Below are positions 1 through 24,268 of a stretch of 64,000 nt of DNA, piece by piece. Numbering within the stretch: position 1 is the stretch's first letter; each line of letters starts with the position of its first letter. The DNA comes from Buchnera aphidicola (Macrosiphum euphorbiae). Its GTDB lineage: Bacteria > Pseudomonadota > Gammaproteobacteria > Enterobacterales > Enterobacteriaceae. The notes under the pieces were generated by a model. The model saw only the letters and a program-made list of their open reading frames with translations, was not told the DNA's origin and did no database searches. Location: the NCBI RefSeq assembly GCF_005237295.1, contig NZ_CP033006.1, positions 62,001-126,000 on the forward strand, written 5' to 3'. The position numbers and the translations under genes are program-made.

Positions 1-771
1 TAAATATATGGGTTTTAAACATTTTTTTTTAACTTGATACAATCCATAAATTTGTTTTTTTTTATGAAAAATATCTGTTTCAGGTGAATTAAGATATTTT
101 GGTAAAATATTATTTAATGAGCGACCTCCGAAACCAATAATTCTGCCATGATAATCTTGTATAGGAAATATTATACGTCCTTGAAATCGATCGTATGTAT
201 ATCCCTTTTTACTAACAGAAATTATATTGTGAATTAATAATTCTTGTTCAAGTTCTTTATTTATTTTTAGTTTTTTATAAAAGCTGTTCCAGCTTAAACT
301 AGAAAAGCCAATCAAAAAACAATCAATCATATTTTTATTAATACCTCTTTTAGCTAAATATTGATTAGCTAAATCAGTAAAATTTATATTTTTTTTATAT
401 AATTTACATATTTTTTCCATTAATAAATATAGCTTTTGTTTTTTAAAATAAAGATTATTTGACGTTATATTTTCAAATGGTATTGTAATACCATGCATTG
501 TAGCTAGTTCTTCAATCGTTTCTATAAAACTTAAATTTTCATACTGTATTAAAAAGTCAATGGCATTACCATGTGCATTACATCCAAAACAATAGTAAAA
601 TTGTTTTTCATAACTAACAGTAAAAGATGGAGTTTTATCGTTATGAAAAGGACAGTTAGTTTGATAATTTTTACCATTTTTTTTTAATGTTAGACGTGTA
701 TTAATTAATTCTATAATATTAGTTCGAAATAGTAGTTCAGTGATAAAATATTTAGGTATTTTCCCAGACAT
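1..771 (-). CDS. dnaG: DNA primase DnaG (N-terminal part, cut by window edge)
   Basis: DnaG lays down RNA primers for replication. The frame is open from an ATG at 771 down to base 1, giving 257 codons, and continues outside the window. The protein begins MSGKIPKYF, close to E. coli MAGRIPRVF. It carries the N-terminal zinc finger (CPFH at about residue 40, then CFGC), followed by the start of the catalytic core ([20 protein letters not shown]). It lies 80 bases downstream of rpsU on the same strand, as in the E. coli rpsU-dnaG-rpoD operon. The C-terminal DnaB-binding part cannot be judged here. Confidence 0.97.
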
Positions 772-798
772 GTAATTTTACAATTATATAATTTATTT

Positions 799-819
799 CC
801 GTTCTTAAAAAAAGAACGG
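799..819 (-). promoter_or_regulatory. Hairpin in the rpsU-dnaG spacer
   Basis: An 8-bp perfect inverted repeat (CCGTTCTT / AAGAACGG, 5-base loop) sits between rpsU and dnaG. E. coli has an internal terminator in this same spacer that lowers dnaG expression relative to rpsU. Here the T-run lies on the plus-strand side, so read in the operon direction the hairpin is not followed by a clear U tract. It could be an attenuating hairpin or a processing site; its role is inferred only from its position. Confidence 0.5.
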
Positions 820-851
820 CTTTTTTTATTTATTTTTTTACTAAAATATAT

Positions 852-1067
<216 letters not shown>

Positions 1068-1294
1068 TCAAAATTTACCTCAATTATCTACTTTTATAAA
1101 ATAAAATATTATCAAAATATATTTAAAACAATAGATCCTATATCAATGAGTATCATATTGTAAAGTGTCATTTTTTATGTTTAATATAGTTTCAATAAAA
1201 TTTTTCGAAATTATGTCATTTAGAATAACATTAATTGAAAATTGATGTGAAATGTATTTCTTCTTATAAAACTTTAACATATAGGCGTAAATTT

Positions 1295-2305
1295 ATGAGA
1301 GTATTAGGTATTGAAACTTCTTGCGATGATACAGGTATAGCGATTTATGATAGTAAAAAAGGATTGTTAATCAATGAAGTGTATAATCAAAGAAATTTAC
1401 ATAATATGTATGGAGGTGTTGTTCCAGAATTAGCATCTCGAGAACATATGACGGCAATGATTTTTTTATTAAAAAAAATATTTAAAAATAAAAGTATTGC
1501 TGAATGTATTGATATAATTGCTTATACTGCTGGTCCTGGTTTAGTCGGTTCATTATTAGTGGGTGCCACATTTGCATGTTCATTAGGATTATCTTTGAAT
1601 AAACCAGTCCTTCCGGTTCATCATATGGAAGCACATTTATTATCACCAATGTTAAATTTTAAATCAATTAAGTTTCCATTTATTGCATTACTGGTATCTG
1701 GGAAACACACACAAATTATTGGTGCTTATAAATTTGGTAAATATGAAATACTTGGAAATTGTTTAGATGATGCAGCTGGTGAAGCATTTGATAAGACAGC
1801 AAAATTATTAGGATTAAAATATCCAGGTGGTGCTGAGTTATCTAAATTAGCATGTAACGGAATTGAAGATTATTGCTATTTTCCTAGACCTATGATACAT
1901 CATCCTAGTTTAAATTTTAGTTTTTCAGGTTTAAAGACTTTTGCAGCTCAAAAAATTAATAAATGCAATCAAAGTATACAAGAAAAAGCTAATATTGCAA
2001 GAGCTTTTGAAAATGCAGTAATTGACGTATTATTAATCAAAACTAAAAAAGCATTAAAAAAACAAAAATGGAAACGTTTAGTTATAGCAGGTGGTGTTAG
2101 TGCGAACCATAATTTACGTGAAAAATCTAAAAAAATGGTTAAAAAATATTTTAATGGAACAGTTTTTTATTCTAGTCCAGAATTTTGTACAGATAATGGT
2201 GCTATGATTGCATATCTTGGTTTTTTACGTCACAAAGAAGCAAAAAAGCCTCAATTAGAAATATTAGTAAAACCAAAATGGTCTATAAACGATTTGTTTT
2301 TTTAA
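1295..2305 (+). CDS. tsaD: tRNA t6A37 threonylcarbamoyltransferase subunit TsaD
   Basis: TsaD transfers the threonylcarbamoyl group to A37 of ANN-decoding tRNAs, together with TsaB, TsaE and TsaC. I chose the ATG at 1295 ([14 protein letters not shown]) because it matches the E. coli N-terminus; an upstream in-frame start at 1235 would add 20 unrelated residues. The resulting 336 residues compare with 337 in E. coli. The metal-binding histidines are visible at 110 and 114 ([10 protein letters not shown]), with the ASKH-fold glycine motifs [10 protein letters not shown] and [11 protein letters not shown]. The last 23 bases overlap convergent ribB. Confidence 0.98.
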
Positions 2306-2930
2306 TGTAAAAGATTAAATCTTTTATAGTTAATACTTGCATTTTTTTATTTTTAGAAAATTCTATTACTTCAGGTGTACGAGCCATAGTTCCATCTTTG
2401 TTTGTTAATTCACAAATGACTCCAGCTGGTTTAAATCCTGCTAGAGAAACGATTTCGATAGCAGCTTCTGTATGTCCTGCTCTTGATAAAATCCCACCTT
2501 TATGGGCTCTTAAAGGGAACACGTGTCCTGGTCTGTTTAAATCACTGGGTTTAGCATTATCAGCAATAGCAGTTTTTATAGTAGTCAGTCTATCTCTGGC
2601 TGATACACCAGTAGAAATTCCTTTAGAAGCTTCTATTGTCACTGTAAACCCAGTACGATATGCACTAGTATTTTTTTTAACCATCATAGGCAAATTAAGC
2701 TGTTTTCGTTTTGATTCAGTTATACAAAGACATACTATTCCGCTACCATATCGAATGGTTAAAGCCATTTGTTCTATTGTCATATTTTCGGATGCGAAAA
2801 CGAGATCTCCTTCGTTCTCACGTTTTTCATCATCTAATATAATAATTCCTTGACCAGATTGTAATGCAAGTATTGCTTTTTGAATTCGTTCTATAGGTGT
2901 TCCAAATTTAGACAAGAGTGTTTGGTTCAT
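2283..2930 (-). CDS. ribB: 3,4-dihydroxy-2-butanone 4-phosphate synthase
   Basis: RibB converts ribulose 5-phosphate to dihydroxybutanone phosphate, one of the two precursors of riboflavin. Its 215 residues compare with 217 in E. coli. The acidic metal-binding loop ([16 protein letters not shown]) and the [10 protein letters not shown] and NKDGTMAR motifs are all present, so it should be active. It converges with tsaD, with a 23-base overlap. No FMN riboswitch is recognisable in the AT-rich upstream region, unlike E. coli ribB. Riboflavin synthase (55919-56545) lies in the same window. Confidence 0.98.
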
Positions 2931-3222
2931 TATAAAAATCTTAGTAGAGTTGAATGATTCTTAAAAAAAGTTTTACGCATATTAAATTTAATTAATTTTT
3001 TATCTTCATATTTTAAATTTTTTATAATAGAAGTATTAATAATTAATCTATCATATATTGAATTAAATTTAAGAGCAACGTAGATTTATTTTTAAGTGAT
3101 ATTTAAAATTTTTTTATATATTATTACTCAATAGAGTATTTTATTTATATGTGACTAAATATTTCATAAGTTTTCTAAAATAAGTTTTATAAAGAATTAT
3201 AAAAATAAATAATCAGTATTTT

Positions 3223-4170
3223 TTATTGGTTATTTAAAACATAATTTAATTCATTAATAGTTAATGTTTCAGTACCAATTTTTTGTATTACTATGCTAGC
3301 TGCAATATTAGCATAAAAACATGCTTCCTCTAAAGAATATCCTGTTGCTAAAGATGCTGCAATTGTAGCAATTACAGTATCTCCTGCTCCGGTTACATCA
3401 GAAGCTATTTTAGATATAGCAGGAAAATGTATTGGTTTTTTTTGTGTTTGAAATAAAGTCATCCCTTGCTTAGAACGAGTAACTAACAGTGCTGATAAAT
3501 TTAGTTCAGATAATAATTTTATCCCTTTTTGAAAAATTTCATTTTCTCTATGACATTTTCCAACTATTTTTTCAAATTCAGAAAGATTTGGTGTTAATAA
3601 ACTAGCACCAGAGTATTTTTTAAAATCGACTCCTTTAGGATCTATTAATATAGGGATAGACATTTTTTTTGCAAAACTAATAATTTTTTTTATATTTACT
3701 AGAGTGCCTTTTGCATAATCTGATAGTACTAAAATTTTAAATTGTGATATTGAATCAATAATTTTTTGATCTAGCATGCTATTTTTTTTAGAAATATATT
3801 TTTCTTGAAAATCTACTCGAATTAATTGTTTTTTTTCTGATACAACTCTAATTTTAGTAATAGTTTTATTTTTTTTTATAGAAATTAAATCACAATTAAT
3901 TCGTACATGGTCCATAAGTTTTCTCAATATTAATCCTTCATTATCCATACCAATAAAACCAATTATTTTAGAATAACCTCCAATCTCTGCAATATTTTTA
4001 GCTACATTTGCAGCACCTCCAGGTTGTTCTTTGACTTTATGGATTGGTACGATTGGTGTTGATTGTTCGGATAGCATATGATGGTTTTTACTGTACCAAT
4101 AACAATCTAGTATGAGATCTCCCACGACTAGAACAAATGAATTATTGAAATTAATTAATTTTTTTTTCAT
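3223..4170 (-). CDS. hldE: HldE, heptose-7-phosphate kinase domain only
   Basis: E. coli HldE (477 residues) is bifunctional: an N-terminal PfkB-type kinase makes heptose 1,7-bisphosphate, and a C-terminal adenylyltransferase makes ADP-heptose for LPS. Here the protein is 315 residues and stops at the interdomain linker. The kinase half looks intact: [12 protein letters not shown] near the start, the GGAANVA substrate loop, and the catalytic DVTGAGDT near residue 260. I translated the 292 bases downstream and saw no remnant of the adenylyltransferase. The gene is therefore a kinase-only version, perhaps unable to complete the ADP-heptose pathway. Confidence 0.93.
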
Positions 4171-15366: not shown

Positions 15367-17034
15367 ATGAATTTCAGCACTATAGAAGATTCAGTTTTAA
15401 AAGAGAAAAAAAAATTTAATAATTTTTTACCTCATTTTTTAAAAAATTCTCGTGTTTTAATTATTTTACTAACAGCTGCAGTTATTACTGCCGTTTCTGT
15501 TTCAATATGGATTAAATCTCCTGAGTATCAAGTTTTATATAATCATTTGTCTAATGAAGATGGTGGAGCTATTATTAATGAATTAAATCAAATGAAAATT
15601 CCCTATCAATTTTCTGATTCATCAAGTCAAATATCAGTTCCAAAAGATAAAGTCTATGAAATTCGTTTACGTTTGGCAGAAAATAATCTTCCTAGAGGTG
15701 GTGGTGTTGGGTTTGAACTATTAGATAAAGAAAAATTTGGAGTAAGTCAATTTAATGAGCAAATAAATTATCAGCGTGCTTTAGAAGGAGAATTAGCTCG
15801 AACTATACAAAGGATTCATTCTGTAAAAAGTGCTCGAATACATATAGCATTTCCTAAATCATCATTATTTCTACAACAAGATAAAAATAAATCATCAGCT
15901 TCTGTAGTGTTAGAACTTCAGCCAGGACGAACATTAGATACAGGACAAATTAATGCAATATTACATTTAGTATCAAGTAGTATATCTAATCTTTTAGTAG
16001 AAAATATTACTATTGTAGATCAATTTGGAAAATTATTAAATCAGAACTCTTTAGAATATGATCAAGTTAATGATTTACAATTTAAGTATTCTGAAGATAT
16101 TGAAACTCGTTATAAAAATAGAATAAAAGATATTTTAGAACCATTAGTAGGAATTGGTAATATTTATGCGGAAGTGACTGCACAGATAGATTTTAATGCA
16201 CAAGAAAAAACACAGGAAAAATATTCACCGAATACTAACCGTAAAAACCAATCAATAAGATCTCATCAAATAAGTATTCATGATGAAATAGAGAAGAAAT
16301 CTATCAAATCAGATATACCGAATGCTTTATCTAATAATGATATTTATTTTAATAAGAAAAATCGTAATGAAGATATCAAACAATCAAATTCTATAAAAAA
16401 TACTCAAAATTTAAAAAATAATGATACGCCTATTAACAGTAACATTAATCGTGATAATACTATAAATTATGAATTAAATCATAGTGTATCACACACTAAA
16501 ATGAATATAGGAGAAGTTAAAAGATTATCAGCAGCAGTGATAGTTAATTTTACTAAAGACAAGAATGGAAAATTAGTTCCTTTAACTGTAGAAAAAACAA
16601 GAAATATTGAAAAATTAATACGAGAAGCTATAGGATACTCTAAATCTCGAGGAGATACTATTCATCTTGTAAACGCATCATTTGCTAAATATAATGAAAA
16701 AAAGCCAGTTCAAATACATCATTTAAACACATTTGAATTATCTGATTTTTTGTTTGCCATTGCACCATGGTTTTTTTGTTCTTTATTTCTTTTCTTTTTA
16801 TTAAAAAAATATATTTGTCCTTTTTCAAAAAACAATACTTTTGAAAATACATTAGTTATGCAAGATAAAAAACATGTAGAAACACATAATATTTTAGAGA
16901 AAAATGTTACGCAAGTAGATATTAAAAAAAACGTAAATATAGATAAATTAATCCATCAAATTTCTAATATATCTAATCAGAATCCACGTACTATAGCGTT
17001 GATTATTCGTCAATGGATGAGTGATAAAATATGA
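15367..17034 (+). CDS. fliF: Flagellar MS-ring protein FliF
   Basis: FliF forms the MS-ring in the inner membrane and the base of the export apparatus. The protein is 555 residues (E. coli 552). It has two membrane segments, at about 28-48 and 455-479. Conserved ring-building motifs include NNLPRGGGVGFELLD and GELARTIQRIHSVKSARIH. The middle (about 300-375) is low-complexity and Asn/Lys-rich. The C-terminal FliG-binding tail (NPRTIALIIRQWMSD) is kept. An AGGAAG site precedes the ATG, and the stop overlaps the fliG start (ATGA). Confidence 0.98.
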   Translation: MNFSTIEDSVLKEKKKFNNFLPHFLKNSRVLIILLTAAVITAVSVSIWIKSPEYQVLYNHLSNEDGGAIINELNQMKIPYQFSDSSSQISVPKDKVYEIRLRLAENNLPRGGGVGFELLDKEKFGVSQFNEQINYQRALEGELARTIQRIHSVKSARIHIAFPKSSLFLQQDKNKSSASVVLELQPGRTLDTGQINAILHLVSSSISNLLVENITIVDQFGKLLNQNSLEYDQVNDLQFKYSEDIETRYKNRIKDILEPLVGIGNIYAEVTAQIDFNAQEKTQEKYSPNTNRKNQSIRSHQISIHDEIEKKSIKSDIPNALSNNDIYFNKKNRNEDIKQSNSIKNTQNLKNNDTPINSNINRDNTINYELNHSVSHTKMNIGEVKRLSAAVIVNFTKDKNGKLVPLTVEKTRNIEKLIREAIGYSKSRGDTIHLVNASFAKYNEKKPVQIHHLNTFELSDFLFAIAPWFFCSLFLFFLLKKYICPFSKNNTFENTLVMQDKKHVETHNILEKNVTQVDIKKNVNIDKLIHQISNISNQNPRTIALIIRQWMSDKI

Positions 17035-18026
17035 TCTTAAATGGTACTGAAAAAAGTGCATTGTTATTAATAGCAATAGGGTCTGATCAAGCAGGAGAAA
17101 TATTAAAACATTTAACTCCTTTTGAAGTGCAAGAACTAATTAATGCTATGGTGAATATTAAAAGAGTGTCTACTAAAAAATTAAATGAAATACTCTTAGA
17201 GTGTTATGATCTCGCAATAAAAAACAATGCTTTTAATTGTAATAACAGTGATGAATATCTTATTGACATGTTAACTAAAGCATTAGGAGAAAAACAAGGA
17301 AATTCTTTAGTAAAAGAAGCATTAGAAATTCGTAATGCTAAAATATGTATTAAAGCACTGAATTATATGAAAGCTGAACAAGTAGCCTTTTTATTAGATA
17401 ATGAACATCCGCAAATTGTTACGACAATACTTGTATATTTAAATAAAAATCAATCAGCCCAAGTTCTTTCCTTTCTTAGTAATAAAAAACGAGCTGAAAT
17501 TATATTAAGAATTATAGATTTTCGTGGTATCGAAGAATCTTGTTTAGTTGAATTAACTAAAGTTATTAATAATTTATTGCTAAATAAAAAATTAATTTTA
17601 TCAGAGAAAGGAGGCATGAAAACTGCTGCTCAAATTTTAAATTCGATGAAAATGAAAGATGAAAAAGAAACAATAAAAAAAATTAGTATAGTTAATGAAA
17701 AATTAGCAAGTAGAATTGTTGAAGAAATGTTTTTGTTTGAAAATTTAGTGGATATAGATGATGAATATATTAAGTTATTAATTAAAAATATAGAAGAAGA
17801 AAAGTTGTATATTGCACTTCAAAAAACCAATTCTACTATTAGGGAAAAGTTTTTTAAAAATATGTCTGATATAGAATCTAATAAACTGTCTTTAAGTCTA
17901 GAAAAAAAATCTTATATTTCTGATGTTTCTATAAAAAATGAACAAAAATTAATTTTAATAATGATTAAAAGTATTATTGAAAATGGAAAAGTTTCATTGA
18001 AAAATTTAAGAGAGTATTATGCCTAA
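17031..18026 (+). CDS. fliG: Flagellar motor switch protein FliG with lost torque residues
   Basis: FliG links the MS-ring to the C-ring and in E. coli carries the charged ridge pushed by the stator. At 331 residues it is colinear with E. coli, and the EHPQ motif sits at 125-128. The charged residues K264, R281, D288, D289 and R297, known from E. coli torque work, are Q264, I281, L288, S289 and S297 here. The surrounding sequence ([20 protein letters not shown]) is well conserved, so the alignment is secure. The gene starts inside the fliF stop and overlaps fliH by 8 bases. It probably serves as a structural ring subunit only. Confidence 0.98.
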
Positions 18027-18681
18027 TTCGATCTTAGAAAAAAAATGGACACGATGGTATCCAAAAAAAATATTTTTAAAAAATATAAAAAAAAATAAAA
18101 AAATTTTATTACACTCTGATGAATTTAAAAAAGAAGATTTTTTGATAGAGTCAAACAATCAAAAAAATTTTATTGCAGATAAGAAAGAAGTTGAAATAAA
18201 TTTAAAAAAAACTAAAGCATATGAAATAGGTTTTAAAAAAGGATTTCTACAAGCTCAAGAAGAAAATATTTTATTAAAAAATAAATTAAATAGTTTATTT
18301 TTAGATTTTGAAAATGCTCTTTCCATTTTTGAAAATGCATTATGTTCTCAATTACTAAAAACAGTTTTAAAAATTGCATCTTATGTAATTGGTAAAAATA
18401 TCGACATTGATAAATCAGTTTTAATAAATAGCATAAAAAAAATTATCAATAAAGACGGTATTTTTTTAAAAAAACCACAACTTATAATTCATCCTAACAA
18501 CAAAAAATTAATAGAAAACACTTTTAAAGATTTTTTAAATACTTATAAATGGATATTAATTTGCGATGATAGTCTGGACTTAAATGGTTGTAAAATTAAA
18601 TCAGAAAGTGTTGATATAGATGCTACAATAGATGCCAGATGGCAGGAATTATGTCGTCTTATTTATTCAGAGGAATATTAA
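18019..18681 (+). CDS. fliH: Flagellar export regulator FliH
   Basis: FliH binds the FliI ATPase and docks it at the export gate. The 220-residue protein (E. coli about 228) is highly diverged and lysine-rich but keeps the order of the family. Two N-terminal tryptophans, W10 and W13 (KKWTRWYP), correspond to the pair that in Salmonella contacts FlhA. A charged helical middle and the C-terminal FliI-binding domain ([20 protein letters not shown]) follow. It overlaps fliG by 8 bases and shares one base with fliI (TAATG), so the genes are translationally coupled. Confidence 0.93.
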
Positions 18682-20042
18682 TGAATTTAAGATTTGCTCA
18701 ATTTTTAAAAACGTTTTCTTCTTTTGAAGATAGAATTGAGAAGCTTTCTGATGCTATTAATTATGGTCGTCTTGTTAGTATTAATGGATTAGTTTTAGAA
18801 GTTGTAGGATTAAAAATGCCTATTGGTTCAGAATGTTTTATTGAAAGAAAAATAGACGGTAAAAATACAAATATTAGTGCTGAAGTAATAGGTTTTTCAG
18901 GAGAAAAAACTCTTCTATTATCTTGCGAAGAAGTTAATGGAGCCTTTCCTGGTGCTCGTGTTTTTGCACAATTAGGAAATGATGCAGACTGTATTATAAA
19001 AAAAATGCCATTAAGTGCAGAATTATTAGGAAGGGTATTAGATGGTCGAGGTCAACCATTAGATCGACTACCTAAAATCGATCGTAAATATTATACTACG
19101 ATTAAAAATTATACTATTAATCCATTAAATAGAACTCCAATTACTCAAGTGTTAGATACCGGAATACGTGCTATCAATGGACTATTAACTATTGGAAGAG
19201 GTCAAAAAATAGGTATTTTTTCTAGTTCTGGTTTAGGTAAAAGTATTTTACTTGGTATGATGGCACGATATACACAAGCTGATGTTATTATTATTGCTTT
19301 AATTGGAGAACGAGGTCGAGAAGTAAAAGATTTTATAGAAAACATATTAGGAGTTGAAGGATTATCGCGATCCGTAGTTATTGCTGCGCCTGCAGACGTA
19401 TCTCCTTTATTAAAAATACAAGCAGCATCTTATGCTACTAATATTGCAGAATATTTTTATAGAAGCAATAAACACGTATTGTTAATCATGGATTCTTTAA
19501 CTCGTTATGCTATGGCACAACGAGAAATTGCATTATCTTTAGGAGAATTACCTATTTCTAAAGGTTATCCATCTTCTATATTTTCAATAATTCCAAATTT
19601 ATTAGAGCGTACAGGAAGAGTCAATAAAAATAAAGCTTCAATTACTTCATTTTATACCGTTTTAACTGAAGGTGAAGATGAACAAGATCCAGTCTCACAT
19701 CTTGCTCGTTCTATCTTAGATGGACATATTATATTATCTCGTTATTATGCTGATTTAGGTCATTATCCTGCAATTGATATTGAATCTTCTATCAGTCGTG
19801 TTATGCCTAGTATTGTTAATTCCAAACAGCATTATCAAGCTTTTTATTTCAAAAAATTAGTTTCTTCTTATCAAAGAAATAGAGATTTAATAAATATAGG
19901 TGCTTATATTTCTGGCACTGATTTAATCTTAGATCATGCTATTAAAATTTGGCCACAATTAGAAAAATTTTTACAACAAAAAATATCAGAAAAAAGTGAT
20001 TATGTTTTTTCTTGTCAAGAATTAAATAAAATATTTCTTTGA
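18681..20042 (+). CDS. fliI: Flagellum-specific ATPase FliI
   Basis: FliI is the export ATPase related to F1-beta. I chose the ATG at 18681 (AGGAA site, TAATG overlap with fliH) rather than an in-frame start at 18639. This gives 453 residues against 457 in E. coli, starting [10 protein letters not shown]. The Walker A loop is SSSGLGKS at 181-188, Walker B is LLIMDSLTRYA, and the catalytic GERGREVKDF is intact. Conservation is much higher than in fliH or fliJ, which argues for a working ATPase. The stop overlaps the region in front of fliJ. Confidence 0.98.
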   Translation: MNLRFAQFLKTFSSFEDRIEKLSDAINYGRLVSINGLVLEVVGLKMPIGSECFIERKIDGKNTNISAEVIGFSGEKTLLLSCEEVNGAFPGARVFAQLGNDADCIIKKMPLSAELLGRVLDGRGQPLDRLPKIDRKYYTTIKNYTINPLNRTPITQVLDTGIRAINGLLTIGRGQKIGIFSSSGLGKSILLGMMARYTQADVIIIALIGERGREVKDFIENILGVEGLSRSVVIAAPADVSPLLKIQAASYATNIAEYFYRSNKHVLLIMDSLTRYAMAQREIALSLGELPISKGYPSSIFSIIPNLLERTGRVNKNKASITSFYTVLTEGEDEQDPVSHLARSILDGHIILSRYYADLGHYPAIDIESSISRVMPSIVNSKQHYQAFYFKKLVSSYQRNRDLINIGAYISGTDLILDHAIKIWPQLEKFLQQKISEKSDYVFSCQELNKIFL

Positions 20043-21657: not shown

Positions 21658-21763
21658 CAAAAAATATGGAATATTTATTTTAAAAAAAATAATCATGCTG
21701 TTCGATATAAAAAATCGAATGTTTCACTTATATTTTAATAACTTTTACCTGTGAGGTATGCAA

Positions 21764-22723
21764 ATGGGGAAAAGTAATAATTCACATAATAAACTTAAAA
21801 AAATTTATGAAAGAGAAAATCATTTACATAATCCTTTAAAAGGATATGAAATTAAAATATTAGAAGACATTAATAATTGTTTTACGGAAAAATTCATAAA
21901 ATTTTTTTCTAGCTTTACTCAAAATAGTATGAAATTAACTTTCTGTAATATGAAGATAGGATCTTATGATCCTAATAAAAAAATTATAAAAAATTTGCGA
22001 TGTCTTAACTTGGTAGAAATATTGCCTTATAAATATCAATCTTTTATAATTTTTTCTGATGATTTTTTGTCTATTATCATAGATATTTTATTCGGAGGTG
22101 GAGGTAGCTTTACAGATAAAATTAAAAAAATAACAGATATTACATCTACTGAAACTTTTATTAATAAAAAAATTATTGAATTTATAACAACTTCTTTTTC
22201 TAAAATTTATAAAAAATATTTTTTAACAGAAATGAATTTTATTAATAAAAAAACATTTTTTGATTTTAAACAATCTAATTTTAATCCTAATACAGTATTT
22301 TTAATTAATTATTTTAATTTTAATGTTAATAATTTAGAAGTTTTTTTCAACATTTTAATTCCAATATCAATACTTAAACATATAAACAAGAAAATAGTTA
22401 TTTCAAAAAATAATAGTCATAAAAATATATGCATAGAAAAAAATATTGAGAATAAACTTTCTTTGAATGATATATATAATGTTGAATTAAATATTATATC
22501 TAAAATAATTGGTATTTCTGTTTCATATAATAAAATTTATAATTTATTGGTAGGAGATGTGTTATTAATCGAAAAACCTGATAAAATTACAGGATTTGTA
22601 GAAGATCAAGCTATATTTTTTGGAAGTTATAAAAGATTTAATGAACAATCTATTGTTTTTATAGAAGAGTTTATTAATAATAATTTAGAGTCCAATCAAG
22701 ATAAGGAACAATCTAGTGAGTAA
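21764..22723 (+). CDS. fliM: Flagellar motor switch protein FliM lacking CheY peptide
   Basis: FliM is the C-ring subunit that binds CheY-P and contacts FliG and FliN. A GTGAGGT ribosome site favours the ATG at 21764 over the ATG at 21758 and gives 319 residues (E. coli 334). The FliG-contact loop (FGGGGSF) and the C-terminal FliN-like domain ([12 protein letters not shown]) are present. The N-terminal CheY-binding peptide (SQAEIDALLNG in E. coli) is replaced by unrelated residues (NNSHNKLKK). The gene overlaps fliN by 8 bases. fliL, which precedes fliM in E. coli, is absent. Confidence 0.94.
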
Positions 22724-23117
22724 TATAGAGAAAAACTCTAATAATAAAAAATTAATCGATTCTGAAAAAAAAATACTTGAAAGCCAAGAGATTAATAAAA
22801 ATTTATCATCTGAAAAAAATTTAAATAAAAGTATAACAAATGATTCTCAAAATGAAATAGATAGCAAACACGTTATACTTAATACATTAGTTAGCATTAC
22901 TATTGAATTAGGAAAATCGAAAATAAAAATTAAAGATTTTCTTGGATTTTCAAAGGGAAGCATGTTAATTTTGGATCAATCAATAAACAAACCATTAAAT
23001 ATTTTTATTAATGGGCATTTATTTGCATCTGGTGAAATTGTAATTTTAGAAAAAAACTATGGTCTTCGAATCACGAAAATAAAAAATTCTTTAAAAACTA
23101 TCAATGTTTTATCTTAA
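22716..23117 (+). CDS. fliN: Flagellar motor switch protein FliN
   Basis: FliN builds the lower C-ring and helps deliver FliH-FliI to the export gate. It starts at a GTG (22716) inside the end of fliM, with AAGGAA upstream. The 133-residue protein (E. coli 137) has a poorly conserved, Lys/Ser/Asn-rich N-terminal half. The well-conserved SpoA domain follows ([43 protein letters not shown]). Its retention without a motor fits a role in export. Confidence 0.96.
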
Positions 23118-23128
23118 ATCTAAATTTT

Positions 23129-24268
23129 ATGAAAAATAATGTGTTTTTTCAATCAATATCAAATACTTTTCAGCCGATATTTAATAGTGAAAAATTTTTT
23201 CAAATAATCAGTTCGTTATCTGAAATAATATTACTAATATTATTTTTAAGTTGGATCTTAAAGAAAATTTCTTTTTTTAAAATTAATAACATAAAATCTT
23301 GTATGAGAATTATAGATAGATTATCTATTGGATCACAAGAATCTATTGTCTTAGTAGAAGTTAAAAAAGTAAGATTGTTATTAGGTGTAACAACAAAAAA
23401 TATTACTCATTTGTATACATTTTCATCTGTTTTAAAAGATGAAAAAATAAAAAAAATAGATGATACTTTGTTTCAAAAAAAATCTTTTAATCGTTCTTTA
23501 AAAAATTTTTCTAAAATATTCTGGAAAAAAACAATGTTTTATCGAATTATTCCATTTTTATTTTTATTATTACTTTGTCCAACAGTTCGTGCAGAAATAC
23601 CCGGATTAACAAGTCATGTTTTAGATGATGGTGGGCAAACTTGGTCTGTACCAGTACAAACGTTAGTTTTTTTAACATCTTTGACTTTTCTACCAGCATT
23701 TCTTTTAATGATGACTAGTTTTACAAGAATTATCATTGTTTTTGGTCTATTACGAAATGCGTTAGGCACTCCATACGCGCCACCAAATCAAATATTAATT
23801 GGTTTAGCACTTTTTTTAACCTTTTTTATAATGTCGCCTACATTTGATAAAATATATCAAGATGCTTATGTGCCATTTAGCGAAGAAAAGATAAATATGG
23901 AAGATGCTATTTCAAAAGGTTCGATTCCGTTAAAAAAATTCATGTTAAATCAAATACGTATGCCTGATTTAGAGTTATTTTCAAAATTAGCAAATATTTC
24001 CTATTATGAAAATAAAAACGATATACCAATGCGAATTTTATTGCCATCATTTATTACAAGTGAATTAAAAACTGCTTTTCAAATTGGATTTACTATTTTT
24101 ATACCTTTTTTAATTATTGATTTAGTTGTAGCTAGTGTATTAATGGCTCTTGGTATGATGATGGTACCACCTTCAACAATTTCCTTGCCTTTTAAATTAA
24201 TGTTGTTTGTTCTAGTAGATGGATGGCAACTATTAATTACTTCATTAGCACAAAGTTTTAATACATAA
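23129..24268 (+). CDS. fliP: Fused flagellar export proteins FliO-FliP
   Basis: One 379-residue frame carries both FliO (about residues 1-125) and FliP (about 136-379). In E. coli these are separate proteins of 121 and 245 residues that act together in assembling the export gate. The FliO part has a membrane segment at 30-47 and the cytoplasmic motif [23 protein letters not shown]-like region. The FliP part begins at M136 with a signal-peptide-like stretch ([13 protein letters not shown]), then the highly conserved [18 protein letters not shown]. An ATG at 23534 with a GGAAA-like site upstream could also start FliP alone. Confidence 0.93.

Follow-up and report, generated by a model that had tools for sequence, protein, structure and literature searches.

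A Buchnera FliG without torque charges: probable relaxation of the rotor-stator face after stator loss

Introduction

Does a FliG that has lost its torque-associated charges still belong to a rotor that turns, and if not, why is it kept? The question is raised by the fliG gene of Buchnera aphidicola (Macrosiphum euphorbiae). In E. coli FliG, torque is reported to depend primarily on R281, D288 and D289 and secondarily on K264 and R297 (PMC6079164), and cryo-EM places R281 and D288/D289 at opposite ends of the torque helix (PMC11528121). The initial annotation of this DNA took the replacement of all five residues as direct evidence that the C-ring no longer works against a stator. Loss of motA, motB and fliC from Buchnera has already been published (PMC8109811); motor loss was known beforehand, and the FliG residue pattern is what is added here.

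Results

The fli cluster of the window

The window, a stretch of 64,000 nucleotides, lies in a genome of 645,334 bp assembled as a single contig and 99.95% complete. Its fli cluster runs from fliE (minus strand) through fliF, fliG, fliH, fliI, fliJ, fliK, fliM and fliN to a fliO-fliP frame, followed by two ORFs which, by position, we take to be fliQ and fliR. Pfam recovered FliF, FliG, FliM, FliN, FliH and FliI as a complete set. The fliG gene has 24% GC, and its product shares 39% identity with the E. coli protein. The features used below are as follows.

15367..17034, + strand: fliF (MS ring), by Pfam
17031..18026, + strand: fliG, complete, 331 aa, with Pfam FliG_N, FliG_M and FliG_C above cut-off
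17403..17414, + strand: EHPQ motif, residues 125-128, intact in the window by sequence reading
17820..17822, + strand: codon 264, CAA = Q (K264 in E. coli), by alignments and codon reading
17865..17909, + strand: torque helix, residues 279-293, by acceleration scan (modelled helix 280-291)
17871..17873, + strand: codon 281, ATA = I (R281 in E. coli), by alignments and codon reading
17892..17897, + strand: codons 288-289, TTA and AGT = L and S (D288 and D289 in E. coli), by alignments and codon reading
17910..17921, + strand: residues 294-297, S-Y-I-S, with codon 297 TCT = S (R297 in E. coli), by alignment
18019..18681, + strand: fliH, by Pfam
18639..20042, + strand: fliI, export ATPase, by Pfam ATP-synt_ab and T3SS_ATPase_C
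21658..21757, + strand: 100-bp spacer between fliK and fliM, at the place of E. coli fliL
21758..22723, + strand: fliM, with FGG of the FliG-binding loop kept and the CheY-docking N-terminus not recognisable
22716..23117, + strand: fliN, by Pfam FliMN_C

Several irregularities of gene structure were seen in this and related clusters. FliO and FliP form a single 379-aa open frame (window 23129-24268; FliO at 42-127, FliP at 182-373), in which an in-frame Met with a signal-like sequence persists at the FliP start; a Buchnera FliP of 43 kDa tabulated in PMC8109811 would fit such a fusion. FliM and FliN share one open frame in 9 of the 46 regions having both (Buchnera L129, L138, L143, L147, L154 and L158; other small genomes L163, L166 and L172), being either natural fusions or assembly frame errors. 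In L130 (G003), about 3 kb at roughly 637-3769 interrupts fliK, with GC of 0.33-0.36 in three 400-bp windows and no match in Rfam; FliM and FliN are whole downstream of it, and the interruption is either an insertion or an assembly error. The phmmer search for FliM returned none in three of 49 downstream regions (L130, L168 and L170). Elsewhere in G006, G009, G029 and G032, FliG_C was matched weakly a second time (E 3e-5 to 9e-4), within open frames some 500 aa long.

Torque charges are largely lost across Buchnera

The window FliG aligned to Salmonella FliG (8umd) without gaps over residues 73-324, so that residue numbers correspond, and MAFFT with E. coli FliG gave the same placements. Residues 264, 281, 288, 289 and 297 are Q, I, L, S and S, and the replacements listed in the initial annotation are thus confirmed by both the ungapped alignment and the codons. 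A realignment that would restore the charges was excluded, the C-terminal domain being gap-free against Salmonella and E. coli alike.

The annotation also proposed aligning FliG across Buchnera and free-living enterics, which extended the pattern. Among 36 Buchnera genomes (that of the window and 35 of 0.6-0.7 Mb), FliG keeps no torque charge of the right sign in 27 and one in 9. By site, 264 is K or R in 5/36, 281 is K in 3/36 and R in 0/36, and 288 is D in 1/36; D289 and R297 are kept in none of the 36. All five charges were kept in every comparison FliG (48/48), comprising 30/30 from the enteric family, 17/17 at order level, from genomes that all have MotB, and that of E. coli (1/1). The 30 enteric FliGs are the best 30 matches and therefore skewed to conserved sequences, and to offset this skew 23 further matches, mostly of low score, were taken from 20 MotA-bearing genomes. 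Three were left out (L123 and L127, region missing; L124, residue 264 missing), and the 20 complete ones keep five of five charges in 12 cases and two of five in 8. These 20 stand outside the 48-row set used for the retention, polarity and acceleration statistics. Altogether, 119 family genomes carry both FliG and MotA, and FliG was taken from 51 of them.

Stator, filament and switching genes

The stator pair motAB was not found in Buchnera, in agreement with the annotation. The MotA/ExbB family (PF01618), which we take to include TolQ, had no match at E <= 0.001 in any of the 36 genomes, and the window's own genome gave no hit even at E <= 1. The MotB plug (PF13677) was above cut-off in 0/36, with one sub-threshold match (G011) and none in the window's own genome, which also gave no match to TIGR03818. 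The FliL family was found in 0/36. In the same draw, MotB and FliL were present in 18/18 FliG-bearing genomes outside Buchnera. Searches of the window's own genome at E <= 1 returned neither the flagellin N domain (PF00669) nor a CheY-type response regulator (PF00072). The CheY-docking pattern, applied in a strict form, is in E. coli FliM and in 0 of the 35 Buchnera and 10 other-small-genome FliMs searched. FGG is retained in FliM of 34/35 Buchnera and 6/10 other small genomes.

In a wider draw of 198 family genomes, 15 of 134 FliG-bearing genomes had no MotA match, namely three Buchnera and 12 other small genomes (0.4-0.6 Mb), of which 2 were reported directly as lacking MotA and 10 were assigned by absence among 121 matches. 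Their FliGs keep 0 (3 genomes), 1 (6), 2 (2) or 3 (1) charges. When the 48 stator-less FliGs (36 + 12) were thinned at 75% identity, 29 remained; at most one charge is left in 26 of these, and two or three charges in the other three.

Charge loss and acceleration centre on the torque helix

Specificity was gauged on the 119 sites at which the 48 comparison FliGs do not vary in residue class, 23 of them charged besides the five torque sites. Retention in the 36 Buchnera FliGs averaged 0.05 at the five torque sites and 0.49 at the other 23 charged sites; random draws of five sites were as low in 0.8% of cases from charged invariant sites and 0.016% from all 119. Six further invariant charges (E19, R78, E88, E253, D284 and R314) are nearly all lost as well, with retention of 0-0.03, so that charge loss is in part general, which counts against an explanation by stator loss, and is strongest at the five torque sites. 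The description of the surrounding sequence as otherwise conserved holds in part: identity to E. coli is low and the six additional charges are gone, but the C-terminal domain (236-331) without the five sites keeps 0.75 of its invariant sites, compared with 0.77-0.79 in the other domains.

Site changes were counted as Fitch steps on FastTree trees whose lengths nearly match (7.55 and 7.45). Residues 281, 288 and 289 underwent 17, 14 and 16 changes in Buchnera against 0, 4 and 0 among the comparison FliGs, and an unbiased scan of the whole protein returned residues 279-291, the torque helix, as the most accelerated 13-residue window. A test of acceleration at all five sites gave p 0.0025, with sites 288 and 297 lying outside the null's slow class and with sites, not lineages, taken as independent in these p-values.

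The charge order of the helix has also turned over. Net charge of 279-283 minus that of 286-293 is positive in 48/48 comparison FliGs, and negative in 34/36 and positive in none of the Buchnera FliGs; the three largest polarity shifts among 317 windows start at 277, 278 and 279. The helix is positive in Wigglesworthia, and among the 12 other small genomes 6 are negative, 4 positive and 2 zero. By the helix-dipole principle of charge placement along a helix, we infer that the reversal likely reflects a charge order that the stator imposes and a free helix disfavours.

Amid freely varying sites, S294 is found in 35/36 and Y295 and S297 in 36/36 Buchnera FliGs. S297 is common to 10/12 other small genomes; Y295 is not (F in 4, the rest mixed). 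On a plain reading of the model, S297 would be a helix cap, as it stands just before the modelled helix 298-317.

FliG remains under selection and is modelled with its fold intact

Compared with seven relatives, whole-gene dN/dS of fliG was 0.16-0.24, at high dS and over overlapping pairs. Pooled over 602 pairs, likewise overlapping and of high dS, it was 0.54 for the torque helix and 0.40 for the remainder. The fliG frame is open in 36/36 Buchnera genomes (328-333 long), and this, together with the whole-gene dN/dS, ruled out a pseudogene. EHPQ, the FliM-binding motif of FliG, is exact in 17/36 Buchnera FliGs, and H126 and Q128 are present in 36/36. With the motif intact in the window and FGG in nearly all Buchnera FliMs, the residues predicted to join FliG and FliM are kept.

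AlphaFold2 gave a mean pLDDT of 52 from the single sequence and 78.5 (pTM 0.37) from a 16-row alignment, the latter model showing a helix at 280-291, a loop and a helix at 298-317. The modelled C-terminal domain superposed at 1.5-1.6 A on T. maritima FliG-C (1qc7) and on FliG of the MotAB-FliG structure 8ucs; whole-chain TM-scores were low (0.25-0.40) because domain placement differs. In the model, the torque helix retains its shape and has changed its residues.

An AT-rich symbiont with a stator keeps the charges

As a control, a single genome (G159) was available whose FliG is a 100% match to a Wigglesworthia glossinidia MAG. Its fliG has 25% GC, its FliG shows 39% identity to that of E. coli, and MotA and FliL are present; the torque sites read K, R, E, D and K, so that five of five are kept. 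AT bias and divergence alone therefore do not erase the torque charges. Among 15 FliGs similar to that of Wigglesworthia, itself included and ranging from Gammaproteobacteria to Firmicutes, picked regardless of stator content, K264 and R281 are present and residue 289 is acidic in 15/15, and the acid at 288 is missing in 4/15. The CheY-docking pattern is missing from Wigglesworthia FliM (L175) beside kept torque charges, which indicates that torque and switching are separable in loss and suggests a rotor that may be able to turn yet not switch. Expression of fliC and motA has been reported for Wigglesworthia (PMC7526173).

Lateral-type FliGs share three of the losses beside a MotA

The eight further FliGs keeping two of five charges (L114-L116 and L118-L122) come from eight MotA-bearing genomes, each with a single match to MotA and a single one to FliG; they have lost D288, D289 and R297 and kept K264 and R281. 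We label them lateral-type (flag-2) from their low score and sequence. MotA was read in seven of these genomes (L178-L184; G173 omitted); in four of them a single contig carries both fliG and motA, separated by roughly 26-35 kb. In E. coli, bridges are reported between MotA R90 and FliG D289 and between MotA E98 and FliG R281 (PMC6079164). In the lateral-type MotAs, residue 90 is Q in four and D in three, and residue 98 is D in 7/7; Wigglesworthia and one enteric MotA have R and E at these sites, and counting the enteric sequence from its start gives 90 and 98. By sequence, the R90-D289 bridge would thus be gone on both sides and the E98-R281 bridge kept on both. Some flag-2 systems are motile and some non-motile (PMC6993521), and motor function in the eight is accordingly only presumed.

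Since three of the charges are lost here beside a MotA, loss of D288, D289 and R297 is not diagnostic of stator absence. Loss of K264 and R281, as seen in Buchnera, would be the better sign of a missing stator. As to the residues being direct evidence that no stator is present, the conclusion itself is well supported, by the failure to find stator genes; the residues lend it further weight and fall short of direct evidence, as the eight MotA-bearing genomes share three of the losses.

Discussion

We consider it very probable that this is the FliG of a stator-less C-ring, in which constraint was relaxed on the rotor-stator face after the stator was lost and the ring was kept as a scaffold, probably for export. 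What supports this at sequence level is that stator genes were not found, the charges are lost, the torque helix is accelerated, selection is purifying and the modelled fold is kept. We envisage that motA, motB and fliL were lost from the lineage first, an order that we infer; selection would then have lapsed on the stator-facing surface of FliG, and the residues of the torque helix would have drifted freely with the helical form kept. As purifying selection on the whole protein continues, the C-ring would most likely be kept as a static scaffold, one that presumably assembles in this strain and presumably does not turn. In the C-ring, FliG sits on FliF, FliM and FliN on FliG, and FliH-FliI on FliN (PMC7911332), and the Buchnera scaffold would probably keep the FliH-FliI export ATPase in place beneath the type III gate. 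In basal bodies purified from pea-aphid Buchnera, FliG, FliH and FliI are enriched and FliN is depleted (PMC8109811), the latter being no help to the docking role. An export role of the basal bodies has been proposed (PMC8109811), and Toft and Fares had suggested in 2008 that they were repurposed for export (as cited in PMC3246468). Two points qualify relaxation after stator loss: on the tree, the loss of the stator amounts to a single event, which leaves the cause unreplicated, and residue 281 is K or R in 5/12 of the other small genomes, which counts against it.

The charges might have been lost regardless of the stator, solely because mutation is AT-biased and drift acts on a small genome, as the low GC of fliG and the average retention of 0.49 at the other 23 invariant charged sites would allow. 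We regard this as improbable, since Wigglesworthia, with a fliG nearly as AT-rich, an equal distance to E. coli and a MotA, keeps all five, and in Buchnera the five sites are lost far beyond other invariant sites, with acceleration centred on the torque helix. FliG as a decaying relic on its way out, with nothing special about the torque face, is more improbable still. The flagellar gene set does differ among Buchnera, one lineage with a 412-kb genome having lost all of it (PMC8109811), and EHPQ is exact in fewer than half of the Buchnera FliGs; against this stand the uniformly intact frame, the low whole-gene dN/dS, the retention in the other domains and the presence of FliG in purified basal bodies. 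That rotation of the C-ring persists, driven by an unusual stator through other contacts, is scarcely credible. The lateral-type FliGs beside an R90-less MotA do indicate that both sides of the interface can lose residues together, but the MotA/ExbB family was found in none of the 36 Buchnera genomes, K264 and R281 are kept in 69/69 FliGs of stator-bearing genomes (48, 20 and that of Wigglesworthia; one has R in place of K264), and sites 281, 288 and 289 vary freely among strains, unlike an interface.

A more elaborate reading, which we think unlikely, is that the former stator face has become a new conserved contact, in which the reversed-polarity helix and the fixed S-Y-x-S loop would bind an export component or an adjacent FliG, locking the C-ring as a static export platform. 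The cluster of fixed new residues at S-Y-x-S had p 0.04 under random placement; that this p is only 0.04, and that neither Y295 nor the uniform reversed polarity is shared by the 12 other small genomes, speaks against such a contact.

Under relaxation after stator loss, Buchnera and Wigglesworthia make up a natural experiment, alike in AT content and divergence, with MotA absent in one and present in the other. The contrast marks residues 279-291 as a stretch kept chiefly for torque, with K264 and R281 common to the stator-bearing FliGs compared, and the lateral pairs suggest that the D289-R90 bridge is dispensable on both sides while R281-E98 stays. The process is an ordinary evolutionary one in an unusually clean example. 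It gives residue-level support to the view that the abundant Buchnera basal bodies do not turn, and narrows the question of their role.

Comparison with known flagellar systems

One close precedent is the motor-less Buchnera basal body itself, with the same loss of fliC, motA and motB and export repurposing proposed (PMC8109811; PMC3246468). The FliG torque residues are not mentioned in the available portions of PMC8109811 or PMC3246468, and the titles and abstract openings of the open-licence papers listed by the searches yielded no account of the residue erosion, the Wigglesworthia contrast or the paired loss in lateral FliG and MotA. Wigglesworthia glossinidia resembles the Buchnera of the window in being an AT-rich reduced insect symbiont with the same FliG identity to E. 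coli and no recognisable CheY-docking sequence in FliM, but differs in carrying MotA and FliL and holding all five torque charges. The lateral (flag-2) FliG of Enterobacterales, like that of Buchnera, has lost D288, D289 and R297; unlike it, it keeps K264 and R281 and is accompanied by a MotA, which in the seven read carries Q or D at residue 90 and D at residue 98. With the flag-1 FliG of E. coli and Salmonella, the window protein shares three domains, a length of 331, a gap-free C-terminal domain, EHPQ and the order fliF-fliG-fliH-fliI, but it has zero of the five torque charges, and its genome lacks stator and FliL and has a FliM without recognisable CheY-docking sequence. By descent and fold it is a FliG, and not a torque-bearing one.
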